A stretch of 57,078 nt of DNA from Oscillospiraceae bacterium (GTDB taxonomy: Bacteria; Bacillota; Clostridia; Oscillospirales; Oscillospiraceae): NCBI GenBank assembly GCA_902768805.1, contig CACXMX010000001.1:1-57078 (forward strand), given 5' to 3'. Positions 389 through 16,343 of the stretch are shown here, in pieces (the first letter of the stretch is position 1; each line of letters starts with the position of its first letter). The position numbers and the translations under genes are program-made. The notes under the pieces were generated by a model, which had not been told where the DNA came from, made no database searches, and was given only the letters and a program-made list of their open reading frames with translations.

Positions 389-979
389 TCAGTTGGCCAC
401 CTGGACCATGCTGAAGCGGATCACGCGATCCCCCATTTTGAAGCCTTTCTGAAATTCCCGAACGATCTCCTGCTCGCCGCATTCGGGGTCCTCCGTGTGC
501 ATGACCGCGTTGTGCAGCGCGGGATCGAACGTCTGCCCGACCGCTTCGATGGGTGTAACGCCCATGGCCTTGAGCACCTCGAGGAACTGGTTGAGGGTCA
601 TTTCCACACCCTTGCGGTAGGCCTCGTCCGCGGTGGGATTCTCCAGAGCGCGCTGCAGATTGTCGAAGACCGGCAGGAGCTTGACGATCGTGTCCGCTTT
701 GACGTCGGCGTATATGCTGTCCCGCTCACGGGCGGAGCGTTTGCGGAAATTATCGTATTCCGCGGCCAGTCTCAGATACCGCTCCTTCTCCGAAGCCATA
801 TCCTTCCGGAGCTTTTCCGCCTCGTCCTCGGCGGGCTCTTCCGCCGGAGCCTCGGGGATCTCTTCCGCCGGAGCCTCGGGGATCTCTTCCTCCGGGGCCG
901 GAGCGGCCTCCTCTTCCTTTATCTCTTCGGAGGGAACGGTCTCCTCCGTGTTCTGAGTGTTTTCCTTCGGATCACTCAT
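389..979 (-). CDS. grpE: Nucleotide exchange factor GrpE
   Basis: Co-chaperone that releases ADP from DnaK. 196 residues, a usual length. The first ~65 residues are very acidic and disordered, with a near-perfect repeat EEIPEAPA encoded by a 24-bp tandem repeat at 837-884. A long coiled-coil helix follows (roughly residues 55-100, ending RYLRLAAEYDNFRKRSARE), then the beta domain with GVTPIEAVGQTFDP and the family-typical ending VIRFSMVQVAN. The start overlaps the end of hrcA by 8 bp, so the two are translationally coupled. Identification is firm from NFRKR, LHNAVMH and context. Confidence 0.96.
   Translation of the reverse strand: MSDPKENTQNTEETVPSEEIKEEEAAPAPEEEIPEAPAEEIPEAPAEEPAEDEAEKLRKDMASEKERYLRLAAEYDNFRKRSARERDSIYADVKADTIVKLLPVFDNLQRALENPTADEAYRKGVEMTLNQFLEVLKAMGVTPIEAVGQTFDPALHNAVMHTEDPECGEQEIVREFQKGFKMGDRVIRFSMVQVAN
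837..884. repeat. 24-bp tandem repeat inside grpE
   Basis: Two identical 24-bp units (837-860 and 861-884), followed by a degenerate third. In grpE they encode a repeated Glu/Pro/Ala octapeptide in the disordered N-terminal tail. The repeat is in frame, so gain or loss of a unit would change tail length without breaking the gene. Confidence 0.85.
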
Positions 980-2051
980 CGGACGTTACGTCTCCTTTCA
1001 GGATCATTTTTCCGAATCCGGCGGGGGCTTCGCCGCTGCCCAGCAGACGGCTGAGTCCTTCGGCGATATACTGGAGCTTGGCGGCTACCGCCGCGTAGTC
1101 CATCCGCAGAGGACCCACCACGCCGATCAGGCCGCGCTGGCCCTCTCCGGCGTCGTAGCTGGCCATGACCACGCTGGAGTCGCGCAGCTCCTCGGCCAGG
1201 TTTTCCGGACCGATGATGACGCGCACGCCGCTGTCCGATCCGGCGGAAGGAAGGCTCATCAGGTGTCCCGAATCGGACAGATAACTGATCACGCGGTGAG
1301 CCTTGTCCGGATCACGGAACTCCGGCTGCTGCAGAAGGCTGCTCTCGCCGGTGACATAGGCCTCGCCCTCCCGGCTTCGGGAGAGCGCCTCGATGGTAAA
1401 GGCGGCTATGATCGATGTGAGCCCCATCGTGTCCCGGGCGGCGCGTTCGGTGGCCGAGATCAGAACGGGAGTGATCTCCTCATCCGTCAGACCGGTAAAG
1501 CCGGCGTTGAAAAGCGCCGAGAGCTTCTGGATCATACCCTGATCCACGGAGAAGGGAAGATGCACCAGCTTGTTCTGGACGGTGCTGTTGCTCAGCAGCG
1601 CCACGATAATAAAAGTGTTGGCGTCCACATACAGAAGATCGAACCGCTTTACCGTGGCCGCGCGCGGCGCGGAGAGAGCCAGAGCGGGATATCCGGTGAG
1701 CTGCCCCGCAAGCTTGCCCGCGTCCGCCATCAGGCGGTCGAGCTGCTCCATTTTCTCGTTCAGGCGGGCGTTGATGGCCTCGGCCTCCTCCAGGGAGAGC
1801 TTCTGGCGCTCCATAAGCTCGTTGACGTAGAAACGGTACCCCTGAGGAGAGGGGACGCGCCCGGCGGAGGTGTGGGGCTGCTCAAGATAACCCAGCGCCG
1901 TGAGCTCGGAGAGCTCGTTGCGGATGGTGGCGCTGCTGCAGCCCAGACCGGCCGTCTCGGCGATGGTCTTGGACCCTACCGGTTCCGCGGAGCGGATGTA
2001 ATTCTCAACCACGGCGGCGAGTATTCTCTTTTTTCTCGCGCTGATCTCCAT
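972..2051 (-). CDS. hrcA: Heat-inducible transcription repressor HrcA
   Basis: Repressor of the dnaK (and usually groE) operons; binds the CIRCE inverted repeat. 359 residues, a normal length. The N-terminal winged helix carries ILAAVVENYIRSAEPVGSK and SSATIRNELSELTALGYLEQPHTSAGRVPS, the HrcA signature; a GAF-like and dimerization region follows. The ATG at 2051 has an AGGAGG site about 9 bp upstream. It is the first gene of the operon and sits directly behind its own CIRCE operator (2092-2118), so it should be autoregulated: GroEL normally keeps HrcA active and heat stress releases repression (family knowledge). Confidence 0.97.
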   Translation of the reverse strand: MEISARKKRILAAVVENYIRSAEPVGSKTIAETAGLGCSSATIRNELSELTALGYLEQPHTSAGRVPSPQGYRFYVNELMERQKLSLEEAEAINARLNEKMEQLDRLMADAGKLAGQLTGYPALALSAPRAATVKRFDLLYVDANTFIIVALLSNSTVQNKLVHLPFSVDQGMIQKLSALFNAGFTGLTDEEITPVLISATERAARDTMGLTSIIAAFTIEALSRSREGEAYVTGESSLLQQPEFRDPDKAHRVISYLSDSGHLMSLPSAGSDSGVRVIIGPENLAEELRDSSVVMASYDAGEGQRGLIGVVGPLRMDYAAVAAKLQYIAEGLSRLLGSGEAPAGFGKMILKGDVTSDE

Positions 2052-2091
2052 GGCGGCGCCTCCTGCTGTTAGCAGACAAAAGCGGAGAGTG

Positions 2092-2118
2092 TTGGCACTC
2101 TCTCTTTACGAGTGCTAA
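2092..2118 (-). promoter_or_regulatory. CIRCE operator (HrcA binding site)
   Basis: Inverted repeat of two 9-bp arms around a 9-bp spacer; the plus strand reads TTGGCACTC-N9-GAGTGCTAA. This matches the CIRCE consensus TTAGCACTC-N9-GAGTGCTAA with one mismatch in one arm. It overlaps the -10 element and start region of the hrcA promoter, so bound HrcA would block RNA polymerase. Confidence 0.96.
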
Positions 2119-2145
2119 ATTACCACTTTCCCCGACCCTTGTCAA
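2117..2145 (-). promoter_or_regulatory. Sigma-A promoter of hrcA-grpE-dnaK
   Basis: On the minus strand a perfect -35 TTGACA (2145-2140), a 17-bp spacer and a -10 TAATTT (2122-2117). The -10 touches the CIRCE operator, the usual arrangement for HrcA control. Confidence 0.88.
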
Positions 2146-2178
2146 TAGGATTCCGCAGGAAAGAAAAGAATTAAATGA

Positions 2179-2209
2179 TTGTTCACAAATAGCGAAAAAC
2201 ATGTATAAT
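2179..2209 (+). promoter_or_regulatory. Probable promoter of the AAA+ ATPase gene
   Basis: TATAAT at 2204-2209 with a weak -35 (TTGTTC, 2179-2184; spacer 19, or 18 if read one base later). It diverges from the hrcA promoter. The -10 is convincing, the -35 less so. Confidence 0.55.
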
Positions 2210-2280
2210 AGATAGGCGCCGTATCCGCGCTCAGAGCCCGGAGACGGCCGCCGAACATCTCAGAAAGAAGGAACCGCATC

Positions 2281-3750
2281 ATGCCGACACCCTGGAAGCG
2301 TACCCCGGAAGAGCTCCACGCGACCTACGTCGCCAACACAGAGGCCTTTTACAGAGTGGCCGGGCGCGGACTGGCGCAGGAGCTGGACGATTTCGTTACG
2401 TCCTGTGCCCTGGGACTGTGGAAATGCAGCCGCAATCTGAACCAGCAGCACGTGGACGCGGCAAACGCCCTCTATTCAAAAGGAAGGCCTCAGCCCAAGT
2501 GGCTGCTGTGGGACCTGACGGAGAAGGTCTGCGGCGCCGGCGAGTTCCTGCCGCCTCTGTTTTTCTGGAATCTGACGGAGATGGACGCCCGGAGAGGCAC
2601 CAGCAATTCGCGCATCTTTATCCGGATGCTCACGAATATCCTGCTCTATCTCGCGGCGGTGGACGACGAGGTCACCATGGCCGAGGCCGAGTACATCACC
2701 GAGTGCTCCGACCGGCTGACCGCTCTGTGCGACGGCGCCAATGTGCCTCGCTCCAAAGCGCCCATCAATCCCGCGGAATATATCACCAGCCAGGAGCCGT
2801 CGTTCACCGCCAAGGCGGGAACGGCTTCCTCCGGCGGGGCGCAGAGCGAGACCGGAACGGCTGCCGCCGAGCAGCCCGAGAAGCCGGACCTGGACGAGCT
2901 GATGGCAGAGCTGGATGAACTGGTGGGGCTTGAGACCGTAAAAAAAGAAGTCAAAAGCCTGATGAACCTTATCAAGGTGCGCAAGCTTCGCGAGGCCGCG
3001 GAGCTGCCCAACGCCCCGATGAGCCTGCACATGGTGTTTTTGGGCAACCCGGGCACCGGCAAAACCACCGTTGCCCGCCTGATGGCGGGACTGTACGCGG
3101 CCATCGGCGCCCTGTCCAAGGGCCAGCTGGTGGAGGTGGACCGCTCGGGCCTGGTAGCGGGATATGTGGGACAGACCGCGCTGAAGACCCAGGAGGTCAT
3201 CCAGTCCGCCATGGGCGGCGTGCTGTTCATCGACGAGGCGTATTCCCTGGCCTCGGGCGGTGAGAATGATTTCGGAAGAGAGTCCATCGAGACGATCCTG
3301 AAGGCCATGGAGGATCACCGGGACGATCTGGTGGTGATCGTGGCGGGCTACAGCGGGCCGATGGAGAAGTTCATCTCCTCCAATCCCGGACTGCAGTCCC
3401 GGTTCAATAAATATATGTTCTTCCCCGACTATAACGGAGAGGAGCTCATGGCCATGTTCCGCTCCCGCTGCAAAAAGAACGGCTACACGCTCACCGAAGA
3501 CGCCGACGCCTTTGCGCTGGAGCTGTTCCGGGATATGTATGAGAACCGGGACGACAACTTCGGCAACGGCCGAGACGTTCGCAACCGCTTTGAGGATGTG
3601 ATCTCCCGGCAGGCCAACCGGCTGGCGGAGATGGACGCTCCCACCAAGGAGGATCTGATGACCATCATCAAGGCGGATCTGCTCACGGCGGAGGAGATGG
3701 CCGAATACGAGGCGGAAAACGGCGCCGGACCGGCTGAAGATCCGCAATAA
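2281..3750 (+). CDS. AAA+ ATPase of the CbxX/CfqX-SpoVK family
   Basis: 489 residues. The C-terminal half (about residues 205-470) is a CbxX/SpoVK-type AAA+ module: Walker A GNPGTGKTT near residue 255, Walker B VLFIDEAY near 313, then IVAGYSGPMEKFISSNPGL and SRFNKYMFFPDY. The N-terminal ~160 residues are different. They contain a helical stretch LLYLAAVDDEVTMAEAEYI resembling TerB-like domains (tentative), joined by an Ala/Ser/Glu-rich linker (residues ~175-200). The family includes Rubisco activase CbxX and the sporulation protein SpoVK; the substrate cannot be predicted. ATG at 2281 follows AGAAAGAAGG. It is a single gene ahead of pncB, with a 59-bp gap. Confidence 0.85.
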   Translation: MPTPWKRTPEELHATYVANTEAFYRVAGRGLAQELDDFVTSCALGLWKCSRNLNQQHVDAANALYSKGRPQPKWLLWDLTEKVCGAGEFLPPLFFWNLTEMDARRGTSNSRIFIRMLTNILLYLAAVDDEVTMAEAEYITECSDRLTALCDGANVPRSKAPINPAEYITSQEPSFTAKAGTASSGGAQSETGTAAAEQPEKPDLDELMAELDELVGLETVKKEVKSLMNLIKVRKLREAAELPNAPMSLHMVFLGNPGTGKTTVARLMAGLYAAIGALSKGQLVEVDRSGLVAGYVGQTALKTQEVIQSAMGGVLFIDEAYSLASGGENDFGRESIETILKAMEDHRDDLVVIVAGYSGPMEKFISSNPGLQSRFNKYMFFPDYNGEELMAMFRSRCKKNGYTLTEDADAFALELFRDMYENRDDNFGNGRDVRNRFEDVISRQANRLAEMDAPTKEDLMTIIKADLLTAEEMAEYEAENGAGPAEDPQ

Positions 3751-3809
3751 TCGGGCATTGAGCTTTATCTCGATGTCATTTATTGATCATATCGGAGGAG
3801 GACCCGCAT

Positions 3810-5288
3810 ATGGACATGCGCTCTCATCAGAACATGACCATGCTCTGCGATTTTTACGAGCTGACCATGGGCAACGGGTATCTGCGCGCCGGGATAGGCG
3901 ACAGGATCACCTATTTTGATCTCTTTTTCCGCCAGGTGCCGGACGGCGGCGGTTTTGCCATTGCCGCGGGACTGGAGCAGGTGGTGGAGTATATCCGGAA
4001 CCTTCGCTTTGACGAGGACGACATCGCGTATCTGCGCGGCCGGGGGATCTTCTGCGAGGAGTTTCTCAGCTATCTGAAGGATTTCCGCTTCACCGGCGAT
4101 ATCTGGGCCGTGCCGGAAGGGACCCCGGTGTTTCCGAGAGAGCCCCTGATCACGGTGCGGGCGCCCGCCATCCAGGCGCAGCTGGTGGAGACCTATCTGC
4201 TGCTGGCCGTGAACCATCAGTCGCTGATCGCCACCAAGGCGAGCCGGATCGTCCGCGCGGCCAAGGGCCGCGCCGTTATGGAGTTCGGTTCCCGCCGGGC
4301 CCAGGGCGCCGACGCTGCGATCCTCGGGGCGCGCGCCGCTTATATCGCCGGCTGCTCCGGCACCGCCTGCACCATATCGGACCAGTGCTACGGCGTGAAG
4401 GCCCTGGGCACCATGGCCCACTCCTGGGTACAGATGTTCGACTCGGAGTACGAAGCCTTTCAAACATACTGCCGGATGTATCCCACCAACGCCGTACTGC
4501 TGGTGGACACCTACGACACGCTCCGTTCCGGCATCCCCAACGCGATCCGCGCCTTCAACGAGGTGCTCAAGCCTATGGGCATCACGAAGTGCGGCATTCG
4601 TCTGGATTCGGGCGACATGTCCTATCTGACGCAGAAAGCACGCGTGATGCTTGACGAAGCCGGATGGACCGAAGCCACGATCACCTGCTCCAACGCGCTG
4701 GACGAATACCTTATCCAGGACCTGCTGCTCCAGGGGGCGAAAATCGATTCCTTCGGCGTCGGCGAGAGGCTGATCACGGCGCGCAGCGAACCGGTATTCG
4801 GAGGGGTATACAAGCTTGTGGCCGTGGAGCGCGGCGGTGAGATCATCCCGAAGATCAAGGTGAGCGAGAACGTGGTGAAGATCACGGTCCCGCACTTCAA
4901 AAAGCTTTACCGCTTTTATGCCCGGGATACCGGAAAGGCGCTGGCCGACTACATGGCCCTGAGCGACGAGACCGTGGACGACTCGGGTAATTTCGAGATC
5001 TTTGATCCGGACATCACATGGAAACGCAAGATGCTCTACAATTTCGAGGCACGGGAGCTGCAGGTTCAGGTTTTCCGCGGCGGAGAGCTCGTGTACGATC
5101 TCCCCACGCTCGAGGAGATCCGCGCCTACTGCGCCGAGCAGATGAACACGCTGTGGGACGAGGTCAAGCGCTTTGAGAATCCCCATAACTACTATGTGGA
5201 CCTGTCTCAGAAGCTTTGGGACATCCGCAACGATCTGCTGGTGAACGCCCGACACTCCCAGGTCCCCGCGGGTGGGAGCGCGGACTGA
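3810..5288 (+). CDS. pncB: Nicotinate phosphoribosyltransferase
   Basis: Makes nicotinate mononucleotide from nicotinate and PRPP, the first step of the Preiss-Handler NAD salvage route (cytoplasm). 492 residues, typical. Visible motifs are MLCDFYELTMGNGYL at the N-terminus, VMEFGSRRAQG, LVDTYDTLRSGIPNAI, GIRLDSGDMSYL and SFGVGERLITA, all characteristic of the NAPRTase family. The start at 3810 is chosen over an upstream in-frame codon at 3783 because GGAGGAGG lies 8 bp before it. It ends just before a strong terminator at 5329-5355. Identification is firm. Confidence 0.95.
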   Translation: MDMRSHQNMTMLCDFYELTMGNGYLRAGIGDRITYFDLFFRQVPDGGGFAIAAGLEQVVEYIRNLRFDEDDIAYLRGRGIFCEEFLSYLKDFRFTGDIWAVPEGTPVFPREPLITVRAPAIQAQLVETYLLLAVNHQSLIATKASRIVRAAKGRAVMEFGSRRAQGADAAILGARAAYIAGCSGTACTISDQCYGVKALGTMAHSWVQMFDSEYEAFQTYCRMYPTNAVLLVDTYDTLRSGIPNAIRAFNEVLKPMGITKCGIRLDSGDMSYLTQKARVMLDEAGWTEATITCSNALDEYLIQDLLLQGAKIDSFGVGERLITARSEPVFGGVYKLVAVERGGEIIPKIKVSENVVKITVPHFKKLYRFYARDTGKALADYMALSDETVDDSGNFEIFDPDITWKRKMLYNFEARELQVQVFRGGELVYDLPTLEEIRAYCAEQMNTLWDEVKRFENPHNYYVDLSQKLWDIRNDLLVNARHSQVPAGGSAD

Positions 5289-5328
5289 CGTCACCGCACG
5301 GAACAAAGGAACGGTATAAGAAAAGTTA

Positions 5329-5355
5329 GATCCCGCGGTGGAAAACCGCGGGATC
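5329..5355. terminator. Terminator between convergent pncB and patatin-GT genes
   Basis: Perfect 11-bp inverted repeat (5329-5339 / 5345-5355) with a 5-base loop and short T/A-rich flanks. It lies between two converging genes, so it may serve both. Confidence 0.75.
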
Positions 5356-5384
5356 CTTGTCGTATGAGAGGCGTCCGCCGGAAA

Positions 5385-7838
5385 TCAGAAGAAATACCGG
5401 TTCATGGCGTCGCGGGCTTTTTCGATCGCGTCGCTGATGTCGCCGGTCAGATCAAAGAAGCCGTCGAGCACGGTGCGCCTGCGGCGCAGCTCGCCGCTGT
5501 GCCAGCGCTCAAGCACCGTCCGATAGCGGTCGCGGGCGCGGTCCACCGCGTCCTCCCAGCTCAGGTAGATCTCCCGGCAGGCATTCTCGCCGACGGACCG
5601 GAAGAATTCCTTCGAGGCCGAAGGCGAGGTGAGAGCGGCGGCCAGGCTTTCGGCGTTCTCGTCGATGAGGATGCCGGTGACGCCGTCCTCAATGCCCTCG
5701 GCGGCGCAGCTGCCCCGGACGAGCATGCTGGCCAGGGAACAGGCGGCCGCCTCGCGTACGACGAGCCCGTTGGTATCGAAGGTGGAGGGGAACAGGAAGA
5801 GATCCGCGCGCGTGTACCAGGCGCGGATGACGTCACGGTCCTTTTCCGCGCCGACGAAACGGCACCGGTCGGCCAGACCCAGCTCGCCGGCGAAGGCTTC
5901 GACCTCGGAACGATCCATGCCGTCGCCCACGAATACCATGCAGAAATCTCCGCCGCTCTCCCGGATCCGTTTCAGGCCCTCGAGAATAATGCGCAGGCCC
6001 TTATACCACATGATGCGGCCCAGAAACAGATAGACGGGGACATCACCGGGAAGGGACCACTTGGCGTTCAGCTCCGCGACCGCCTCGTCGGAAGCGCGCC
6101 CGCGGCTGAGATCCACCCCGTTGGGCATGACGATATAATCTCCCGTATAGCCCAGAGAGCGGAGATTGTTCCCGGCGCCTTCGCTTACGACCCAGACCTC
6201 GTCGCAGGCGGAAATGTTGTTAACCAGCAGCTTCACCGCGGCTTCCTGCATCACTTCCGAGTGGATCGTATTCTCGATGTCGATGTCGAATTTGGTGTGG
6301 TATGTAAACACTACGGGCACGTTCTCGCGCTCGCGCAGGACGCGCGCGAGAATCGTGGACGCCACGGGGCAGTGTGTGTGGATGATGTCGAAATCCATCT
6401 CGTCCAGCCTGCTCACCACCGAGGCGGCAAAGGGGTTTCCGGCGCGGTACCCCGCCAGCTTTGTGGTATCGATGCTCGGATAGCGAACCACGGGAAAAGA
6501 GTAATCGTCCTTGGCGTCCGGATAATCGGGCGTGGCCACGACGCAGTATTCCTCTTTGCCGGCCAGGCAGCGGGCGTAATTGAGGACGGCGTTGGCGACC
6601 CCGTCCACCACCGGCGGGAAGGAGTCGTTGAGCAGACAGACGCGCAGCGGGCTCTCGGGGGTCCACTCACGCTTCGGAGGAGCGGCGGGGACAGTCTCCG
6701 GCGCTTTGGGAGGAAGCAGGAAATCCGCCACATCGCGCAGACCGCGGTCGAGAGCGCCTTCCCCGCCCACAGCGGAGAGAAGCTCCGTCTCGGCGTAGAT
6801 CTTCCACTCGGGCACGCCGATCCGGTCCGCCGCGTCCTCAAGGAGGACCGTGAGCATTTCCCGGTAGTCTCCGTCCTTTACGCCGAAGCGTTCGGCCAGA
6901 TTCGGAAGAAGCTTTTCATGGACGGAGCGGAGCGTCCAGCCGCTCTCCTCCCCGACGGCGCGGAGCGCCGAGCGAACCAGCAGGGTGCGCGCCTCGTCTT
7001 CGGTACAGTCCATATCTATGCAGTACTTTTTCCCCCGCAGTCCGTAAAGGGCGCGCATGCCGTCAAAATAGCCCAGACGCATGTTCTGCTCGCTCTGCTC
7101 GGCCTCAAACTCCAGAGTGCCGCCCAGTTCCGAGCCGGGCTCGATGGTGAACACCCGCGTGTCGTCGGGGATGCGTACGTTCCGTTCTATCCCGGGACCG
7201 AACAGACGGATGGCGATGATGTTGCGGTATCCGTTCTCCACAAGGACGTGCAGCGGAAGAACGTCCGTCACGCCGCCGTCGGTGTAACGTTTTCCTCCCA
7301 GCTTTTCACTGCGGAAGGCGGGAAAATAAGCGCTGGCCATGAGCATGTTGGCCAGCTCCCCCTCGGGCAGGTCCCGGGCGCGGAGCTCCAGCTCCTTTCG
7401 GTCCGTGAGGGAGTAGGTAACGATGAACAGTTCCGTCTCCGAGTTCCGAACGGCCTCCTCGGGGACGGACTCGCGGATCAGATTCTGCAGCGGCGTGATG
7501 TCGAAGCCCCCGTCGAGGATCACCTTCCCCACCTGGGCGAGCAGAGAGCCGAGGCCGGAAAGGCTGAACTCACCGTTCATCAGCTGGTGCATGGACTCGT
7601 CGTCCACGTCCATGATCTGAGAGTAGCTGATGTTTTTCCAGAGCTCTTCCGCCTTTTCGAGATTTCCCATGGCGATCATGGCGCCGTTGAGCGAGCCTAC
7701 CGAAGAGCCCGCGACCGCGGCAATGCGGATCCCGGCCTGCCGCAGAGCGCGCCATACGCCGATCTGATAGGCGCCTTTGGCGCCGCCGCCCTCCAATGCC
7801 AGCGCATAGGAAATGTTGGGATCGATCTTCAGTTCCAT
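5385..7838 (-). CDS. Patatin-like phospholipase fused to GT4 glycosyltransferase
   Basis: 817 residues with two enzyme domains. Residues ~9-260 form a patatin-like phospholipase: oxyanion hole GGGAKGAYQIG, nucleophile elbow in VAGSSVGSLNG (GxSxG), and catalytic Asp in YTDGGVTDVLP. After a helical stretch and a Pro-rich linker (~375-398), a GT-B glycosyltransferase of family GT4 begins at RVCLLNDSFPPVVDGVA. It continues with FTYHTKFD, VMPNGVDLS, FLGRIMWYKG, FVGDGMD and the acidic site around NGLVVREAA. This resembles bacterial glycolipid synthases acting on diacylglycerol. Start taken at 7838 (MELKIDP), since the upstream extension looks non-coding. Inferred role: coupled membrane lipid hydrolysis and glycosylation. 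No membrane segment is seen. Single gene on the minus strand. Confidence 0.88.
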   Translation of the reverse strand: MELKIDPNISYALALEGGGAKGAYQIGVWRALRQAGIRIAAVAGSSVGSLNGAMIAMGNLEKAEELWKNISYSQIMDVDDESMHQLMNGEFSLSGLGSLLAQVGKVILDGGFDITPLQNLIRESVPEEAVRNSETELFIVTYSLTDRKELELRARDLPEGELANMLMASAYFPAFRSEKLGGKRYTDGGVTDVLPLHVLVENGYRNIIAIRLFGPGIERNVRIPDDTRVFTIEPGSELGGTLEFEAEQSEQNMRLGYFDGMRALYGLRGKKYCIDMDCTEDEARTLLVRSALRAVGEESGWTLRSVHEKLLPNLAERFGVKDGDYREMLTVLLEDAADRIGVPEWKIYAETELLSAVGGEGALDRGLRDVADFLLPPKAPETVPAAPPKREWTPESPLRVCLLNDSFPPVVDGVANAVLNYARCLAGKEEYCVVATPDYPDAKDDYSFPVVRYPSIDTTKLAGYRAGNPFAASVVSRLDEMDFDIIHTHCPVASTILARVLRERENVPVVFTYHTKFDIDIENTIHSEVMQEAAVKLLVNNISACDEVWVVSEGAGNNLRSLGYTGDYIVMPNGVDLSRGRASDEAVAELNAKWSLPGDVPVYLFLGRIMWYKGLRIILEGLKRIRESGGDFCMVFVGDGMDRSEVEAFAGELGLADRCRFVGAEKDRDVIRAWYTRADLFLFPSTFDTNGLVVREAAACSLASMLVRGSCAAEGIEDGVTGILIDENAESLAAALTSPSASKEFFRSVGENACREIYLSWEDAVDRARDRYRTVLERWHSGELRRRRTVLDGFFDLTGDISDAIEKARDAMNRYFF

Positions 7839-7884
7839 GTCGGTGTCCTTTCTCCGGTCAGCAGCCGGCAACTGTCCTGGCTGT

Positions 7885-7914
7885 ATTATAACCGATGCGC
7901 CGGGGTTCGGGCAA
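7885..7914 (-). promoter_or_regulatory. Possible promoter of the patatin-GT gene
   Basis: Minus-strand TATAAT (7890-7885) with a weak -35 TTGCCC (7914-7909), spacer 18. Together with dgt this forms a divergent ~200-bp intergenic region; no clear promoter was found for dgt itself. Confidence 0.45.
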
Positions 7915-8044
7915 CCTCTGTTCGGAATATGCGATGAAGTTTTTTGCGGAAAAAAGGGAAACGGAGCCGCCGCGGCGTATTAGTTATTTGCGAGTGAAAT
8001 GAAAGGTGCTCTGCCCGCAGCGGGCGGAGAAGGAGGCGAACGGG

Positions 8045-9049
8045 ATGGCGGATCCGCGCGAGGAACGGGAAAAACTTGAGGAACTGCTGGTGGGCCCGCT
8101 GGGCGTGCGCGCTCGGGATTCCGCGGGCCGGGCGGTACGTGAAGAAGAGAGTTCGCTGCGCACCTGTTTTCAGCGGGACGCCGACCGGATCACGCACTGC
8201 AAAGCCTTCCGCCGCCTGAAACACAAGACCCAGGTGTTCCTTCAGCCGGAGGGCGACCATTACCGCACGCGCCTGACCCACACGCTGGAGGTCACCCGGC
8301 TGGCGCGCACGGTGGCGCGGGCGCTGATGCTCAATGAAGATCTGGCGGAGGCCATTGCTCTGGGTCACGACCTGGGGCACACACCCTTCGGACATGCCGG
8401 GGAGCGGGCGCTCAATAGGATTTATTCCGGGGGGTTCCGCCATTACGAGCAGTCCCTGAGGGTGGTGGACCGCATCGAAAAGGATGGCCGCGGTCTCAAT
8501 CTGTGCCGGGAGACCCGTATCGGGATCCTGGCCCATACCACCGGCCACCCGGAGGAGAGCCGGGAGTCGATGGTGGTGAGGCTGTGCGATCACGTGGCCT
8601 ATCTGAATCACGATCTGGACGACGCGCTGCGCGCCGGGATCGTCACCGAAGAGGAGGTCCCCGACCTGATCCACGAGAAGCTCGGCACGTGCAGCTCGCG
8701 GCGCATAGACACCTTTATCCGCGACATAGTCGACGAGAGCCGCGGCGGCAGAGTGGATATCTCGGAAGGACTGCGGGACGTGTGGGACCTTTTTCATGAG
8801 TTCATGAATGAGAGAGTATACCGCAATCCCGTGGCCAAGGGAGAGGAAGCCAAGGTGGACAACATCCTGCGCGGTATCTGGGACCATTATTACGCCCATC
8901 CGGAGGCCATGCCGGAGGATTACCGCGCCATCGCCGAACGCGACGGGCTGGACCGCGCCGTGACGGACTATGTCTCGGGCATGACGGACGACTACGCCAT
9001 CGAGCAGTACGGAAAGATCTATATCCCGATGGCCTGGAGCGTAAAATAA
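8045..9049 (+). CDS. dgt: dGTP triphosphohydrolase-like HD protein
   Basis: Removes triphosphate from deoxynucleotides, limiting dNTP pools (family knowledge). 334 residues, matching short dGTPase-like proteins. The HD metal site is clear: TRLTHTLEVTRLAR supplies the first His, GHDLGHTPFGHAGE the HD pair and further His residues. The N-terminal SLRTCFQRDADRITHCKAFRRLKHKTQVF block is family-typical. Start at 8045 (MADPREE) is supported by AAGGAGG 8 bp upstream. It leads the conserved Firmicute order dgt-dnaG-rpoD. A small hairpin lies in the 103-bp gap to dnaG. Confidence 0.93.
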   Translation: MADPREEREKLEELLVGPLGVRARDSAGRAVREEESSLRTCFQRDADRITHCKAFRRLKHKTQVFLQPEGDHYRTRLTHTLEVTRLARTVARALMLNEDLAEAIALGHDLGHTPFGHAGERALNRIYSGGFRHYEQSLRVVDRIEKDGRGLNLCRETRIGILAHTTGHPEESRESMVVRLCDHVAYLNHDLDDALRAGIVTEEEVPDLIHEKLGTCSSRRIDTFIRDIVDESRGGRVDISEGLRDVWDLFHEFMNERVYRNPVAKGEEAKVDNILRGIWDHYYAHPEAMPEDYRAIAERDGLDRAVTDYVSGMTDDYAIEQYGKIYIPMAWSVK

Positions 9050-9152
9050 AGAAGCGATACGGAAAAAAGAATGATCGCGGACTTCTCCGGGAGGGACAGT
9101 CCCGGTCATTCGGAATACAGGACGCATTTCCGAACGAAAGGGGGGAACGGGA

Positions 9153-10880
9153 TTGCCGATACCGGAACGGTTTCTCGATGAACTCACCGAACGCAGCGAT
9201 ATAGTGGAGGTGGTCGGGCAGTACGTACGCCTGACGAAAAAAAGCGGGGCAAACCTGTTCGGACTGTGTCCGTTTCACAGTGAAAAGACCCCTTCCTTTT
9301 CCGTGTCTCCCGACAAGCAGATCTACCACTGCTTCGGCTGCGGCAAGGGCGGCGGAGTCATCAACTTTATCATGGAGATCGAGAACCTGGACTTCCGGGA
9401 CGCGGTGGCCTTCCTCGCGCGGCGCGCCAACATGCCCATGCCCGAGGAGGCGGAGGGAGAGGATTCCTCCCGACGCGGCCGCCTTCTTGAGCTCAACCGG
9501 GACGCGGCGCGGTTCTTTTATGACCGGCTCGTATCTTCCGACGGGCGGGCGGCTCAGGAATATGTCGCCAAGCGCGGCATCTCCGGCGCCATGGTGCGGA
9601 ATTTCGGACTGGGCTTCGCGCCCAACGAGTGGAACGCGCTGACGGACGCCATGAGGAAAAAGGGCTATACCGACCGGGACCTGCTCGACGCCGGGCTGAT
9701 GAAGCCGGGGAAAAAAGGAGGCGGCTACGACACCTTCCGCAACCGGCTGATGTTTCCCGTGATCGATGTGCGGGGGAGCGTTATCGGCTTCTCCGGGCGC
9801 ATCCTTGACGACGGAGAGCCCAAGTATCTCAACAGCCCGGAGACGCCGGTGTTCAGCAAGAGCAGAAACCTGTTCGGGCTGAATCTCGCGAAAAAGACCA
9901 AAAGAGGATATATCATCCTGGTGGAGGGGAACATAGACGTGGTCTCCCTGCACCAGGCGGGGTTCGACTGCGCGGTGGCCTCTCTGGGTACGTCGCTCAC
10001 GCCGGAGCAGGCCCGACTCCTCACGCGCTATACCAAGGAAGTGATCCTCTGCTACGACAGCGACGCGGCGGGGAAAAAGGCGGCGCAGCGCGCCATAGGC
10101 ATCCTGGAGAAGCTGGACATGAAGGTCCGGGTGCTGCAGGTGACCGGGGCGAAGGACCCCGACGAGTTCATCCGCAGGAACGGAGCGGACGCGTTTGCCA
10201 ATCTGATCGAGGGCTCGGCCGGACAGATGGAGTATCGCCTCGCCGTCCTGGCGGAGCAGTATCCGCCGGATACCGCCGAGGGAAAGGTGGACTTTTTTCG
10301 CGCGGCGGCTTCGCTGCTGGCCGCGATCCCCAACGCCGTGGAGCGGGAAGTGTACGCGGCGCGGGCGGCCGACATCGCCGGCGTGAAGAAGGAAGCCGTT
10401 TCCGATGAGGTGGAACGGCTGCGCCGCTCAAAAATGAGGGGCGCGAAAAAGAAGGAGAACCGGGACGGGACCCGCCCGATACCGACCGCGCGGCGCGGCA
10501 TCCGCTACGACGATCCCCGGTCCGCGCGCGCCGAAGAGGGGCTGATCCGGCTGCTGTATCTGGACCCCGGCATCGCGCGGGGCCGTGAGCTCCCCGAAGC
10601 GTCCGCCTTCTCTTCCGAGCTGCTGGGGCGGTTCTATTCCGAGCTCCTTGAACGGATCCGATCCGGGGAGAGGATCTCTTTGGGCGTGCTGGCGGGGCGC
10701 TTCACCTCCGAGGAGATGAGCCATTTCACCTCTCTGCTGGAGGCGCCGGAGGACCTGGCCAACGCGGACCGCGCGCTGGAAGACTACATCGCCGTCATCA
10801 CGGACCGCGGCGCCGAAGAGGACGAGGATCTGGCGAAGATGGCGGAAAAAATGAGAAAAACCAAGAGTTACGGAGGATAG
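9153..10880 (+). CDS. dnaG: DNA primase DnaG
   Basis: Synthesizes RNA primers for replication. 575 residues. The N-terminal CHC2 zinc finger is present (CPFHSEKTPSF then YHCFGCGKGG), followed by the catalytic core with FSGRILDDGEPKYLNS and a TOPRIM domain (VEGNIDVVSLHQAGF; CYDSDAAGKKA). The TOPRIM motif often reads VEGYMD; here it is VEGNID, still with the catalytic Glu. The C-terminal helicase-binding part is short. The start is TTG at 9153, preceded by an AAAGGGGGG site; no ATG is available nearby. The gap to rpoD is 3 bp, so the two are cotranscribed. Confidence 0.96.
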   Translation: MPIPERFLDELTERSDIVEVVGQYVRLTKKSGANLFGLCPFHSEKTPSFSVSPDKQIYHCFGCGKGGGVINFIMEIENLDFRDAVAFLARRANMPMPEEAEGEDSSRRGRLLELNRDAARFFYDRLVSSDGRAAQEYVAKRGISGAMVRNFGLGFAPNEWNALTDAMRKKGYTDRDLLDAGLMKPGKKGGGYDTFRNRLMFPVIDVRGSVIGFSGRILDDGEPKYLNSPETPVFSKSRNLFGLNLAKKTKRGYIILVEGNIDVVSLHQAGFDCAVASLGTSLTPEQARLLTRYTKEVILCYDSDAAGKKAAQRAIGILEKLDMKVRVLQVTGAKDPDEFIRRNGADAFANLIEGSAGQMEYRLAVLAEQYPPDTAEGKVDFFRAAASLLAAIPNAVEREVYAARAADIAGVKKEAVSDEVERLRRSKMRGAKKKENRDGTRPIPTARRGIRYDDPRSARAEEGLIRLLYLDPGIARGRELPEASAFSSELLGRFYSELLERIRSGERISLGVLAGRFTSEEMSHFTSLLEAPEDLANADRALEDYIAVITDRGAEEDEDLAKMAEKMRKTKSYGG

Positions 10881-10883
10881 ATC

Positions 10884-12155
10884 ATGAGCGAGAAGAAAGA
10901 AAAGAAAACCGCGGAAAAGACCGAGGCCGATATCCAGGCCGGTATCGCCGCCCTCGCGGAGGCCATTCTGGCGCTCGACGAGCCCGCGGAGATCGCCGAG
11001 GTCCCCGAGGAGGAGCATCCCCACGGGAAGAAGGAGGCCGCGGATAAGGATCCCAGGACCCGCGAAGAAAAGCTGATGGCCCTGATGGAGAAGGGGAAGA
11101 AAGCCGGGAAGCTCACACTCAAGGAGATCTCCGATGTGCTCGAGCCGATGGAGCTCTCCACCGATCAGGAGCAGAAATTCTACGAGACGCTCGACGAGCT
11201 GAACATCGAGACCATGGGCGAGGACCTGCCCCCTGTGGACGACGATATGATGGCTATCGAACTCGAGGAGATCGAGGAGGTCACCGAGGAGGAGATCGCC
11301 GACACCGACGCCATGGCGGACAGTTTCTCCACCGACGATCCCGTGCGCATGTACCTGAAGGAGATCGGCAAGGTCAACCTCCTGACCCAGGAGGAGGAGG
11401 TCGAGCTGGCGATCCGCATGTCCCAGGGCGACGAAGACGCCAAGCGCCGCATGGCCGAGGCAAATCTGCGCCTTGTGGTCAGCATTGCCAAGCGGTATGT
11501 GGGACGGGGCATGCTGTTCCTTGACCTGATCCAGGAGGGCAACCTCGGCCTCATCAAGGCTGTGGAAAAATTCGACTACACCAAGGGATATAAATTTTCC
11601 ACCTATGCCACCTGGTGGATCCGCCAGGCCATCACCCGCGCCATCGCCGATCAGGCCCGCACGATCCGCATCCCCGTGCATATGGTCGAGACCATCAACA
11701 AGGTCATACGCGTCTCGCGCCAGCTGCTGCAGGAGCTGGGCCACGATCCCAGCGCGGAGGAGATCGCTGAGGAAATGAACATACCGGTGGACAAGGTCCG
11801 GGACATCCTCAAGATCGCGCAGGAGCCGGTGAGCCTGGAAACTCCCATCGGCGAGGAGGAGGACTCTCACCTGGGCGATTTCATCCCCGACGAGGACGCC
11901 TCGGAACCCAGCGAGGCCGCGAGCTTCGCCCTGCTGAAGGAACAGCTGATGGCCGTGCTGGCCACGCTGACGCCCCGGGAGGAGAAGGTGCTGCGCCTGC
12001 GGTTCGGCATCGAGGACGGACGCACCCGCACGCTGGAGGAGGTAGGCAAGGAGTTCAACGTGACGCGCGAACGTATCCGGCAGATCGAGGCCAAGGCTCT
12101 TCGCAAGCTTCGCCACCCCAGCCGCAGCAAAAAGCTTCGCGATTTCCTGAACTGA
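10884..12155 (+). CDS. rpoD: Primary sigma factor RpoD/SigA
   Basis: Housekeeping sigma-70 factor. 423 residues. The N-terminal ~130 residues are acidic (region 1.1-like). Regions 1.2-2.4 are clear: [33 protein letters not shown] and [20 protein letters not shown]. Region 3 has VHMVETINK, and region 4 ends with the helix-turn-helix [28 protein letters not shown] site precedes ATG 10884. It is translationally close to dnaG and followed by two exported-protein genes. Identification is certain. Confidence 0.97.
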
Positions 12156-12209
12156 TCCCCGATGAGTAAATCGTCCCGAACAGGGAAGATCGTAATGGAG
12201 GAGACACGA

Positions 12210-13181
12210 ATGCTTCATGCCGCGGTAAAACGTCTGATCCTGATCACATTATGCCTGGGGCTGCTCGCGGGCATGTCCGCGGTCATCCGGGCGGAAGCGG
12301 CCGGTGAACCGGAGGCCTCCCCCGACGCCGCGCGGATGGCCGCGGAGACGGACGCCGCCATCGCCGCAATAAAGAACGTAACGCTGCGCAGCGAGGAGAA
12401 GATCCTCGCCGCGAGGGCGATGTACGACGCGCTTCCCGAGGAAGCCAAAGCGCTGGTCACGAAAATTGCCGTGCTGGAAAAAGCGGAGAAGACGCTTCGG
12501 ATCCTCAAAGACAAAGACGCCGCTTCCCGGATCAAAAAACTGATCGACGCCAGGCGCTTCGACGAGGCCATAGAGCTCGCCGAGGAATACATGGCCGGAC
12601 AGGAGCCCTCGGAGGCGCCCGCGGAGGTGATGACGCGCTGCCTGCAGGCGTGCGCGCGCAAGGCGGCGGTCATGATGCGTGACGGGGAATACGAGCGGAC
12701 GGACACCTATCTGCAGGAGTGCCGCGAACGGTATGCCGGAGCGGACCTGACCGAACTGGACCGGGCCCTCGCTTCTCTCAACCGCGCCATTGGCGAGCCG
12801 GAAAGCGGCGCCGTCCTGGCGGGGACAAAGGGGGAATACGGGACCGTCACGGTCCGCGCCGGAGATTCGCCCGCTCTGGTCAAAATAGTATCCCTGTCCG
12901 ACCCGAAGAACGCTCTTACGTTTTATGTACGCGCCGGTGAAACGGCGGCAGTGCATGTGAAGGACGGAAACTACACCCTGCGCTACGCGACCGGGGACAA
13001 GTGGTACGGCGCAGATGAGCTTTTCGGCGCGGCGACCCGCTTCTACAGCGTGGACACAGTGCTTCGCTTTTCTACCGACCGCGTGGGCGGCGACATATTC
13101 TCCCAAAACTACCGGGTGGAGATAAGCGCCTCCTCCGACGGCGCGATCAGCGCCGTTCCGACAGAGGCCGACCGGTTCTGA
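12210..13181 (+). CDS. Exported protein with helical repeat and shared C-terminal domain
   Basis: Not recognised as a named family. 323 residues. The N-terminus is a signal peptide (LILITLCLGLLAGMSAV, cleavage probably after ...AEAA), so it is secreted or anchored outside. Residues ~45-105 hold one ~57-residue helical unit with the pattern IAAIKNVTLRSEEKILAAR..YDALP. A C-terminal ~100-residue domain (GEYGTVTVRAG ... NYTLRYATGDKWYG) is shared with the next gene, so the two are tandem paralogues. Start 12210 is supported by GGAGGAG 8 bp upstream; an in-frame codon at 12162 lacks a good site. Placement behind rpoD suggests read-through expression. Confidence 0.75.
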   Translation: MLHAAVKRLILITLCLGLLAGMSAVIRAEAAGEPEASPDAARMAAETDAAIAAIKNVTLRSEEKILAARAMYDALPEEAKALVTKIAVLEKAEKTLRILKDKDAASRIKKLIDARRFDEAIELAEEYMAGQEPSEAPAEVMTRCLQACARKAAVMMRDGEYERTDTYLQECRERYAGADLTELDRALASLNRAIGEPESGAVLAGTKGEYGTVTVRAGDSPALVKIVSLSDPKNALTFYVRAGETAAVHVKDGNYTLRYATGDKWYGADELFGAATRFYSVDTVLRFSTDRVGGDIFSQNYRVEISASSDGAISAVPTEADRF

Positions 13182-13236
13182 CCTGCCCGACTCCGGGCCG
13201 TAAGTATATTCGGATTCGAAAGAGAGTAAAAACTTT

Positions 13237-14706
13237 ATGGATATTGTCCGCAGAAAAATCCTGATCCCGGCCCTGTGCCTGTTCCTGCTGTGCGGCGCGC
13301 TTGCCGGGTGCCGGAGCAGCGAAGCCGCCGAGGCGGAACGGCTGATAGCCGCCCTCTCCGCCGACGCTCCCGACGCCGACGCCGTTGCCCGGGCCCGTGA
13401 GGCGTACGAGGCGCTGCCCGAGGAAGAACAGGAGGCGCTGGAAAATGCGGCGCTGCTGGAACAGGCCGAGTCGAGACTTCGCGTCAACGCGGCAAACGAA
13501 AGCATCGCCGCTCTGGGTGAGATCACTCTCGAGAGCGCCGATGCCATCCTCGCCGCCCGGGAAAGCTGCGGCGCGCTGACGCCCTACGAGCGTACGCTGG
13601 TGGAGGACCTGCCCGCGCTTGCCGCGGCGGAAGAGGAGCTGCATCGCCTTGAGGTGGAGGCCGCGGCGGAAGAGATCGACGCGCTGATCGAAGCTGTGGG
13701 CGAAGTCGGAACGGAGAGCCGCACCGCCCTGGAGGCGGCCCGGACCGCCTATGACGCCGCGGATGAGGAAGTCCGCGCGGCGGTCAGACTCGGCGGGACC
13801 CTGACCGAGGCCGAGAAAAAGCTTCGCGCTCTCGAGGCTCAGGCCGCTGCCTCGGAGTTCGACGCGTCCGTGGAGGCTTTGGGCGAGGTGACCCTGGACC
13901 GCGAGGCGGATGTCACGGCCCTTCGCCGGGAGTACGACGCCTTTCCCGAGGACGTACGCGCCCTGGTGACGGAAGCAGACGCGCTCTCCGAGGCCGAGCG
14001 CGCGATCACGGAGCTTAAGGACAGAGTGGTCTCCGACGAGGTCAAACTGCTCTGCGACGAGAAGAATTACGATGATGCCATCACCCGCGCTGAGACGCAG
14101 ATAGGGACCCGCCCGCCTGCGGAGGTCGGGGGAAGCCTGGTAAAAAGCTGCCTGAGGGCGTATGCGGCGAAGGGGAATGCCCTGCTCAAGGAGCAGAGAT
14201 ACGAGGACGCCTACATGCTCCTGAGCTCCTGCCGGGAAACCTATGCCGGTCAGGATCTTGCCGAGGTGGACAAGGCGTGGAATGCGCTGAAAACGGCCAT
14301 AGCCGAGCCGAAAAACGGACAGTTCTTCAACGCGGCGGCAAGGGGAGGATACGGCACGCTGACCGTGGAGACCGGCCACAGCCCGGCGTTCATCAAGGTC
14401 ATCAGCATCAACGACCCCAAGCGGGTGCTGTCCTTCTATGTCCGCGCCGACTCAAAGACCACCGTCCACGTGAGAAACGGCACATACACCCTCCGCTACG
14501 CCACGGGGGAGAGGTGGTTCGGCACGAAGCAGATGTTCGGCAGCGGCACCATCTACCGCGCCTTCGACGACAACCTGGGCTTCTCCGCAAAATACGGCTA
14601 CAGCGCCGCCGGCAGGGAAGTGAGATGCTCCGCATGGAAGGTCACCCTTTATCCCGTCGCCGGCGGGACTGCGGGCACCACCCCGATCAGCGCGGACGAA
14701 TTCTGA
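13237..14706 (+). CDS. Lipoprotein with four helical repeats, paralogue of preceding gene
   Basis: 489 residues, no named family recognised. A lipoprotein signal peptide with lipobox LAGC (Cys ~25) predicts membrane anchoring on the outer face. About four copies of the ~55-residue helical repeat follow; their consensus is I.ALGEVTLES...ILAAR..YDAL..... The C-terminal domain (GGYGTLTVETG, HVRNGTYTLRYATGERWFG) closely matches the previous gene. The difference in repeat number suggests duplication then repeat expansion or loss. The ribosome site is weak. The stop codon overlaps the left end of a structured intergenic element (14705-14847). Function unknown; cell-wall or surface binding is a guess. 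Confidence 0.75.
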   Translation: MDIVRRKILIPALCLFLLCGALAGCRSSEAAEAERLIAALSADAPDADAVARAREAYEALPEEEQEALENAALLEQAESRLRVNAANESIAALGEITLESADAILAARESCGALTPYERTLVEDLPALAAAEEELHRLEVEAAAEEIDALIEAVGEVGTESRTALEAARTAYDAADEEVRAAVRLGGTLTEAEKKLRALEAQAAASEFDASVEALGEVTLDREADVTALRREYDAFPEDVRALVTEADALSEAERAITELKDRVVSDEVKLLCDEKNYDDAITRAETQIGTRPPAEVGGSLVKSCLRAYAAKGNALLKEQRYEDAYMLLSSCRETYAGQDLAEVDKAWNALKTAIAEPKNGQFFNAAARGGYGTLTVETGHSPAFIKVISINDPKRVLSFYVRADSKTTVHVRNGTYTLRYATGERWFGTKQMFGSGTIYRAFDDNLGFSAKYGYSAAGREVRCSAWKVTLYPVAGGTAGTTPISADEF

Positions 14707-14847
14707 GTGTGCCGATAAAGCCGACACGCTTCGATTGAGAAGCGCTTCGCCGGGCTCTCAATCGAGAGGTACCAGTGCAATCGCACGCGGTGCCGCGCCG
14801 GAACCGCCGCCGGGCCCCGAGTTCTGCGAGCCTTTTTCGGCAGTCAG
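14705..14847 (+). repeat. Structured intergenic element, copy 1 (short, ~143 bp)
   Basis: This stretch aligns to the reverse complement of 45835-46069. The left 33 bases match in register, the central hairpin (about 14731-14768, arms CGATTGAG/CTCAATCG) and the CAATCGCACGCGG block match, and the right end TCTGCGAG..(T)n..CAGTCAG matches. Roughly 90 bases of copy 2 are missing here. The ends are imperfect terminal inverted repeats, as in a MITE. It begins within the stop codon of the upstream gene and ends 1 bp before the terminator hairpin. Confidence 0.75.
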
Positions 14848-14848
14848 A

Positions 14849-14884
14849 GACGCCCCGTTTTTCCAAAAGGAAAAACGGGGCGTC
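14849..14884. terminator. Strong rho-independent terminator
   Basis: Perfect 16-bp inverted repeat (14849-14864 / 14869-14884) with an AAAA loop and A/T runs inside the stem. It lies between the convergent lipoprotein gene and miaB, and probably works both ways. Confidence 0.88.
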
Positions 14885-14915
14885 CTGTTATATTCGTAGC
14901 GCCGTCACCGGACCT

Positions 14916-16343
14916 TCAGGCCCGGACGATCTCGCCGAAAAGCGCGTAGGTATTGCTTCCGGTGATCTTCACGTCGGCCCAGCTCCCGATCAGGGATTCG
15001 CTGCCCTTCAGATGCACCAGCCGTCCGCCGTCGGTGCGGGAGGAAAGCGTATAATCTCCGCTCCGGCCGGGACCGTCGATAAGAACCCGGACGACGCGGC
15101 CCTCCTGAGAGGCGTGAAGCGCCGCGGAAACGGCGTTGGCGCTCTCCACCAGACGGTCGAACCGGCTCTGTATCTCCTGCCTGGGAGTCGGATCCTCCAG
15201 CTTCGCCGCCGGAGTGCCGGGCCTGGGGGAGTAGATGAACGTGAACATGGAATCGAAACGCACTTCCTCCGTCAGACGCAGGGTATCCAGAAAGTCCTCT
15301 TCGGTCTCACCGGGGAACCCCACGATCACGTCCGTGGTCAGCACCAGATCGGGGATAAGCTCCCGCGCCCGCTCGGTGAGAGCAAGGTATTTCTCCCGGG
15401 TATACTGCCGGTTCATGGCCTTGAGTATCCGGTTCGACCCGGACTGTACGGGCAGATGGATGTGCGGGGCGCATTTTTCGCATTCGGCCATGGCCCGAAA
15501 GAGCTTTTCCGTCGCGTCCTTGGGGTGACTGGTCATAAAGCGGACGCGGAAATCCCCGGGGATCGCGTCGATCCGGCGAAGCAGGTCGGGAAAGTCCGTA
15601 TCCTCGTCCAGCCCGCGGCCGTAGGAGTTCACGTTCTGCCCGAGCAGAGTGATGTCCCTGTAGCCGGCGGCGATCAGGGCGGAGGCCTCGGCGATGACGT
15701 CGGCGCTGCGCCGGGACCGCTCCCGCCCGCGGACATAAGGGACGATGCAGTAGGAGCAGAAATTGTTGCATCCGCTCATGATCGTCAGCCAGGCCTTCAC
15801 GCTGCCGTCACGCATGCGGGGCAGCCCCTCGGCCACCGCGTCTTCGCCGCCCGCCTCGAACACACGCCCGCGATTGCCCGGCAGCCCGTGCACCTGCATC
15901 GTGCGCTCGAGAAGCTCGGGAAAACGCCAGAGCTCGTTCGGTCCGAAACACAGATCCACCATACGGTAGGAGCGAAGGACCTGCTCGCGTATCTGCTCGC
16001 TCTGAGCCATGCAGCCGCAAAGCACCACGATGCGCTCGGGGTGCTCGCGCTTGACGTGGGTGAGCGCGCCGACATTTCCGAACACCCGCATCTGGGCGTG
16101 CTCGCGCACGGCGCAGGTGTTCACGACGATGACGTCCGCGAGCTGCTCGTCGCCGGTCATGGTGTAACCCATGGCGCGGAGAAAACCGCGAAGGATCTCG
16201 CTGTCGGACTCGTTCTGCTGACATCCGTAGGTGTCCACCATGGCGAAACGTTCGCCGGGCCCGAGCCGGAGGCGGATCCTTTCGCAGAGTTCAAGCTGTT
16301 CCGCTGTCTTTTCGGGGGCGATCTCCCGACGCTGAAGGGGCAT
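14916..16343 (-). CDS. miaB: tRNA-2-methylthio-N6-dimethylallyladenosine synthase MiaB
   Basis: Radical-SAM methylthiotransferase that converts i6A37 to ms2i6A37 in tRNA, the step after MiaA, encoded 2.3 kb away. 475 residues, typical. The N-terminal UPF0004 domain has TYGCQQNESDSE and cysteines in VNTCAVRE and LCGCMAQ (the auxiliary 4Fe-4S cluster). The radical-SAM motif is CNNFCSYCIVPYVRGRERSR (CxxxCxxC). Then come LGQNVNSYG and a C-terminal TRAM domain. Start 16343 is followed by a normal N-terminus. It diverges from mutL with back-to-back promoters. Confidence 0.96.
   Translation of the reverse strand: MPLQRREIAPEKTAEQLELCERIRLRLGPGERFAMVDTYGCQQNESDSEILRGFLRAMGYTMTGDEQLADVIVVNTCAVREHAQMRVFGNVGALTHVKREHPERIVVLCGCMAQSEQIREQVLRSYRMVDLCFGPNELWRFPELLERTMQVHGLPGNRGRVFEAGGEDAVAEGLPRMRDGSVKAWLTIMSGCNNFCSYCIVPYVRGRERSRRSADVIAEASALIAAGYRDITLLGQNVNSYGRGLDEDTDFPDLLRRIDAIPGDFRVRFMTSHPKDATEKLFRAMAECEKCAPHIHLPVQSGSNRILKAMNRQYTREKYLALTERARELIPDLVLTTDVIVGFPGETEEDFLDTLRLTEEVRFDSMFTFIYSPRPGTPAAKLEDPTPRQEIQSRFDRLVESANAVSAALHASQEGRVVRVLIDGPGRSGDYTLSSRTDGGRLVHLKGSESLIGSWADVKITGSNTYALFGEIVRA

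Follow-up and report, generated by a model that had tools for sequence, protein, structure and literature searches.

Patatin-like phospholipases carry the motifs GGGxKG, GxSxG and DGG/A with a Ser-Asp dyad, and release a fatty acid from their substrate, which leaves a lysolipid and not diacylglycerol. The latter is the product of PlcP, a phospholipase C. GT4 glycosyltransferases (GTs) carry an E-x7-E motif. In some marine bacteria agt, a glycosyltransferase gene, is located downstream of plcP, and expression of Agt in E. coli resulted in MGDG and GADG (PMC4796936). The function assigned to gpgS is GlcNAc transfer onto phosphatidylglycerol (PMC12713373).

Here we report on a gene that encodes a patatin and a GT4 glycosyltransferase in one frame. 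It was found in the window, i.e. the whole stretch of 57,078 nucleotides of an Oscillospiraceae contig that was analysed (CACXMX010000001.1, assembly GCA_902768805.1). The PlcP-Agt pairs of phospholipid-to-glycolipid remodelling (PMC4796936) are similar in that a lipid-cutting gene adjoins a glycolipid GT gene. They are two genes, however, and PlcP is a phospholipase C, whereas the lipid-cutting domain of the fusion is a patatin by Pfam. A GT4 fused to LPG_synthase_TM, observed in the same taxonomic family, and the gpgSDF gene set (PMC12713373) likewise combine a GT4 with a partner for membrane lipids, yet there the partner is flippase-like and not an acyl hydrolase as in the fusion. With the GT4 lipid glycosyltransferases as such (alpha-MGlcDAG synthase, PimA, GpgS) the protein shares the GT-B fold and the Pfam GT4 domains; it differs from them in that it scores below the curated cut-offs, has an Asp as the first acid of E-x7-E and carries a patatin.

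Domain architecture of the fusion protein

The gene is on the minus strand and extends from an ATG at 7838 to a stop at 5385 (817 amino acids). A Shine-Dalgarno-like AAGGA is located 7 nt 5' of the ATG. The features of the gene and its immediate neighbours are as follows.

5385..7838, minus strand: patatin-GT4 fusion gene, 817 amino acids plus stop; fusion in 5/9 genus genomes
7242..7802, minus strand: patatin domain, residues 13-199 (Pfam PF01734, E 1.5e-31)
7773..7790, minus strand: GGGAKG oxyanion-hole motif, residues 17-22
7695..7709, minus strand: GSSVG nucleophile motif, residues 44-48, with Ser46
7272..7280, minus strand: DGG motif, residues 187-189, with Asp187
6711..7013, minus strand: helical extension of the patatin, approximately residues 276-376, common to standalone patatins
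6651..6710, minus strand: Pro/Ala-rich linker, residues 377-396, pLDDT <50 at 377-387
5496..6650, minus strand: GT-B/GT4 glycosyltransferase, residues 397-781 (Pfam PF13439, PF00534)
5751..5777, minus strand: D-x7-E motif, residues 688-696; the aligned MshA has E-x7-E
5388..5495, minus strand: Arg-rich C-terminal tail and helix, residues 782-817, pLDDT by blocks falling from 75 to 51
3783..5288, plus strand: nicotinate phosphoribosyltransferase gene, convergent neighbour
8006..9049, plus strand: HD-domain gene, divergent neighbour, dGTPase-like by name; then dnaG and rpoD

The patatin half matched PF01734 with 110.6 bits (gathering score 27.7). The motifs GGGx(K/R)G, GxSxG and DGG were each kept in all 31 patatin-bearing rows of an alignment of 35 rows (A2). 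When the patatin part was modelled alone (residues 1-376), a pLDDT of 90.9 and a pTM of 0.89 were obtained. The best fold match was PlpD, a solved bacterial patatin-like phospholipase (target TM 0.74, E 3.8e-11), followed by CapE, VipD, CapV and plant patatin; a sequence profile likewise ranked PlpD first. Fold, Ser-Asp motifs and oxyanion motif are shared with PlpD, whereas identity in the fold alignment is about 19%, and the helical extension and the C-terminal GT set the fusion apart. Motifs and model together suggest that the patatin is very probably catalytically active.

In the C-terminal half both Pfam domains of a GT4 enzyme scored above gathering, Glyco_transf_4 at residues 411-579 (E 2.3e-22, 80.3 bits) and Glycos_transf_1 at residues 590-753 (E 7e-24, 84.7 bits). 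Foldseek matched the GT part to BshA (7.0e-20, target TM 0.84), MshA (1.6e-19) and PimA (5.5e-15), with only 17-21% identity to BshA and MshA. The first acid of the E-x7-E motif is replaced (D688-x7-E696). This Asp is common to all five fusions and to the four standalone GT rows of A2, and looks like a family trait. The GT motifs, D-x7-E included, were kept in the same rows wherever these were aligned. Judged from its motifs and its modelled fold, the GT can be expected with good confidence to be an active enzyme as well. In the full-length model (mean pLDDT 86.3) each fold is good, and the mutual placement of the domains is not settled (pTM 0.52). Thus, the original prediction of both active sites in a single 817-residue frame, with a complete GT4 domain, was borne out: Pfam domains and motifs were located as described, both GT4 halves were present, and the models recovered a patatin fold and a GT-B fold.

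The surroundings of the gene were scanned with Pfam. Among nine neighbouring window genes (975-16343) no lipid gene was detected; they were housekeeping genes or were without a match. Antisense to the fusion gene the plus strand has an ORF of 857 amino acids (5364-7937). Its 5385-7838 part had no Pfam match, and the ORF was rejected as a true gene; probably, this frame is an effect of GC-rich codon use. Further along the plus strand, 12162-13178 and 13237-14703 are adjoining genes that by eye look alike and seem to encode exported or lipoprotein-like proteins, neither with a Pfam match; the second seemingly contains several copies of a helical, Ala/Glu-rich repeat.

Conservation and translation as one protein

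The one-frame fusion is present in five of nine genomes of the genus (the window, G002, G003, G004 and G006). Two genomes, G001 and G008, possess the GT without this patatin; G001 has a distant patatin, 31% identical, elsewhere in the genome. In two others neither GT nor patatin was detected at E 1e-20. The four additional fusion genomes were taken to be those of loci L025-L028 because contig coordinates and scores were identical; they are Oscillospiraceae MAGs from sheep rumen, goat rumen and goat ileum. Their fusion proteins are 62-76% identical to that of the window. The same one-frame protein in four further species makes chance and misassembly very unlikely, and a misassembly or frameshift join was rejected on these grounds. 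A loss of catalytic residues in homologues was not seen, as the patatin and GT motif sets are intact in 5/5 fusions.

By a rough NG86 estimate from 10 pairs, in which dS was high, dN/dS was 0.10-0.57 for the patatin and 0.21-0.42 for the GT; the helical extension was looser (0.23-1.84). At this rough level both domains appear to be under purifying selection. In one fusion (L028:6001-8169) most of the helical extension of the patatin is missing and both catalytic cores are kept.

The question whether the GT might be translated separately was approached through internal start codons. In none of the five fusions did the last 40 codons before the GT core contain a start codon with a Shine-Dalgarno-like site. 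Further upstream, the window has a GTG 45 codons and L025 one 42 codons ahead of the core, each with GGAG at a spacing of 12 nt; this GTG also occurs in L027, where it lacks a Shine-Dalgarno-like site. An ATG is located 47 codons before the core in L026 (GGAGG at 5 nt) and 50 codons before it in L028 (GAGG at 5 nt). Listed by position, the upstream candidates, which occur in four of the five fusions, are ATG 328 and GTG 357 in the window, GTG 356 in L025, ATG 352 in L026, and ATG 257 and GTG 189 in L028. No candidate is common to all five. These sequences give no indication that the GT is translated separately, and the fusion is almost certainly made as one polypeptide, an estimate that is lowered slightly by the candidates further upstream.

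Origin and distribution

In a GT tree of 71 rows the fusions formed one clade (support 96/91), which adjoined standalone GTs from two genomes of another genus (92/92). In a patatin tree of 100 rows they again formed one clade (99/77), here next to nine standalone patatins of 'Lapin' (rabbit) MAGs (99/95). That patatin and GT have different nearest standalone relatives fits one joining event.

Outside the genus no fusion was found in 300 genomes of the family, 391 of the class and 299 of the family of L031, a Lachnospiraceae MAG; these surveys were samples, possibly overlapping, and scoring was limited to the 2 or 3 top candidates of each genome. As a standalone protein, the patatin with its helical extension is widespread in Lachnospiraceae and other Clostridia. 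In addition, a genome contig collection was scanned with two patatin patterns, and the best 80 of 570 relatives were inspected; this approach is patatin-biased and may miss loci. Among these best 80 of 570 loci were 4 fusions, 4 with a nearby GT gene and 72 without such a GT in the sequence at hand. A scan of viral contigs yielded 107 pattern matches and no relative; a phage or mobile origin was rejected accordingly. Searches of open-licence literature for the patatin-GT pairing or for this patatin family retrieved no title or abstract start in which the fusion was described. By sequence the protein is a new combination of two known domain families, present in one genus in these surveys.

Standalone genes, other fusion partners and the case for a linked function

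In four Lachnospiraceae MAGs, which form one clade, a standalone GT gene and a standalone patatin gene lie close together on one strand at the following loci.

L029:5881-9358, one strand: GT and patatin genes
L030:3002-6193, one strand: GT and patatin genes
L031:5986-8568, one strand: GT and patatin genes, 15 bp apart
L056:5978-9392, one strand: GT and patatin genes

The order is GT then patatin, the reverse of that in the fusion. One small gene, by eye prepilin-peptidase-like, lies between the two in L029, L030 and L056.

Beyond adjacency, the occurrence of standalone GT and patatin in the same genome was counted. In the family survey (E 1e-40; 3 fusion genomes set aside) both were present in 1 of 297 genomes with 2.2 expected (82 GT, 8 patatin), in the L031-family survey (E 1e-60) in 3 of 299 with 4.2 expected (23 GT, 55 patatin), and in the class survey (E 1e-40) in 13 of 390 with 9.3 expected (41 GT, 88 patatin; hypergeometric P 0.10), each time with scores for the 2 or 3 top candidates of a genome. 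Standalone GT and patatin are not clearly found together in excess. The same-strand neighbours of the patatin in the best 80 of 570 loci were SPFH (36), NfeD (35), DAG-kinase-like (25), ArgF-like (38) and BirA-like genes (40); NfeD, Band_7 and DAGK_cat were named by Pfam, the others by eye and from the patatin fusions. Around standalone GTs clustering revealed no neighbour, apart from the domains themselves, in more than 6 of 41 loci.

Members of this patatin family also occur as in-frame fusions with ornithine carbamoyltransferase (ArgF; 12 genomes) and with biotin ligase (BirA; 1 genome, L171), which amounts to 13 of the 55 patatin-bearing genomes in the L031-family survey.

L169-L177 and L187-L190: ArgF/BirA fusion loci, e.g. 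L170:2062-4155, minus strand

Ten of the 13 were identified by Pfam, the other three were assigned to the ArgF group through BLAST. The patatin motifs are kept in all 13. The ArgF start codon with a Shine-Dalgarno-like site is kept in all 12 ArgF fusions (11 ATG, 1 GTG), which may allow ArgF to be produced on its own as well; in the BirA fusion no Shine-Dalgarno-like site was found at the start codon taken for BirA. These proteins have in common with the GT fusion an N-terminal patatin of the same family, but their partners are unrelated to the GT and the ArgF fusions retain an internal start. ArgF and BirA are partners without an evident lipid role, and a fusion by itself is therefore weak proof of a coupled function. 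By comparison, the GT fusion looks more committed than the ArgF fusions.

Possibly, the patatin-GT4 gene is a neutral, translational fusion, in which a patatin family prone to stop-codon loss and run-through was joined to a GT, with domains that work apart and share expression. The frequent in-frame run into ArgF or BirA speaks for it, as do the lack of a clear co-occurrence of the standalone proteins and the absence of a lipid gene among the nine window neighbours scanned. However, the internal starts retained throughout the ArgF fusions have no counterpart in the 40 codons that precede the core of the GT in the five GT fusions. Moreover, adjacent standalone genes were seen in the surveys in no group but the L031 clade, where their order is reversed, so a run-through presupposes an unobserved ancestor in which the patatin gene preceded the GT gene. 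We regard a neutral fusion as a real possibility with the chances somewhat against it.

The glycosyl acceptor

What the GT may glycosylate was examined with curated NCBIfam models. The best model was alpha-MGlcDAG synthase (NF049988) with 85.1 bits against a cut-off of 400. GlcNAc-PG synthase (NF053787) reached 64 bits (cut-off 480) and processive DAG glucosyltransferase 26.3 bits (cut-off 500). GT4 models with other acceptors scored similarly, i.e. XrtA-type 79.7, MshA 77.3, TuaC 70.7 and BshA 66.2 bits. The fusion GT did not reach any curated NCBIfam cut-off, and all scores were far below. The resemblance to diacylglycerol glycosyltransferases which the original prediction had claimed is consequently weak, since the best score lies close to those of several models with other acceptors.

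Six GT relatives were scanned in the same manner. GlcNAc-PG synthase was best for three of them (L148, L019, L020), with 110.8 bits in L148 (cut-off 480), and MGlcDAG synthase for L018. For L031, which is closest to the window GT among the six, and L015 the top model was the polysaccharide GT HpsP (82.5 and 71 bits, respectively). In six genomes from the same family (L147-L149, L158-L160) we also observed GT relatives (about 35% identical) that are greatly extended at the N-terminus. These six proteins, far longer than the GT alone, form one clade in the GT tree. In the three that were scanned with Pfam, L148 being a flippase-fused GT, the extension is a flippase-like LPG_synthase_TM domain.

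The alternative is a glycan enzyme: the GT4 would build an exopolysaccharide, a teichuronic-type polymer or a small molecule (BshA-/MshA-like), and the patatin would only anchor this GT to its membrane environment or trim that environment. The MshA, TuaC and BshA scores near those of the lipid GTs are in line with this, and so are the HpsP matches of L031 and L015 and the top fold matches, BshA and MshA. Against it, identity to the BshA and MshA structures is low, all curated scores fall well short of their cut-offs, distant GT relatives are fused to flippase-like domains, and lipid GT models were best for four of the six relatives (GlcNAc-PG synthase in 3/6, MGlcDAG synthase in 1/6). A glycan role of the GT is, in our view, unlikely. 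A membrane lipid as acceptor is, from these sequence comparisons, the somewhat more probable case.

CBASS-type patatin effectors have the gene of a partner nucleotide cyclase nearby. A defence effector, which like CapV or CapE would lyse the membrane of a phage-infected cell and so kill it, is highly improbable: CapE and CapV are among the fold matches and PADLOC phospholipase effectors matched weakly (best E 3.7e-5, 21 bits), but no nucleotide cyclase was among the nine neighbouring genes scanned, which were housekeeping or unmatched, many standalone patatins among the best 80 of 570 loci reside in housekeeping runs, and the viral contigs gave no relative.

A putative two-headed lipid enzyme

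A membrane lipid is a reasonable setting for the fusion because a distant GT branch is fused to a flippase-like domain and the standalone patatin is often located near SPFH, NfeD and DAG-kinase-like genes. Of the coupled membrane lipid remodelling originally proposed, the membrane-lipid part gains from these observations; the coupling is drawn from the fusion itself, as standalone GT and patatin do not clearly co-occur and the patatin is also fused to ArgF and BirA. As a whole, coupled membrane-lipid remodelling is plausible.

We consider it an even chance that the fusion is a cytosolic, membrane-peripheral, two-headed lipid enzyme. Having no evident membrane spans (the model contains soluble domains only), the protein would act at the cytosolic face of the membrane. 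The patatin head would remove or transfer acyl chains of membrane glycerolipids. The GT head, of the retaining GT4 kind, would use a nucleotide sugar as donor and glycosylate a membrane lipid, either diacylglycerol or phosphatidylglycerol. The flexible linker, or the fusion as such, would keep both activities at the same membrane site in a 1:1 ratio. Product channelling is not required because lysolipid and fatty acid are not the usual acceptors of lipid GTs. Unlike PlcP, the patatin would not yield diacylglycerol, hence a direct hand-over is not implied. The two activities would be linked more naturally if acyl chains were edited on the glycolipid product or on the phospholipid that competes with it.

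That both heads act in one lipid-editing route is put forward tentatively, as possible but short of probable. It is doubtful whether the protein goes as far as a complete one-polypeptide editor, in which the patatin deacylates or transacylates and the tethered GT glycosylates the same pool so that phospholipid is swapped for an (acyl-edited) glycolipid. Such an editor would be the fused counterpart of the two-gene remodelling systems, with a different cutting chemistry.

The contrast to the ArgF fusions carries a general lesson: inferring a coupled function from a fusion calls for a check of retained internal starts and of other fusion partners. The fusion would tie a widespread and apparently uncharacterised clostridial patatin family to a concrete second activity. 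To our knowledge, control of the phospholipid/glycolipid ratio is poorly mapped in gut Clostridia; if both heads use the same lipids, the patatin-GT4 protein would provide a compact model for the tuning of this ratio in these bacteria.
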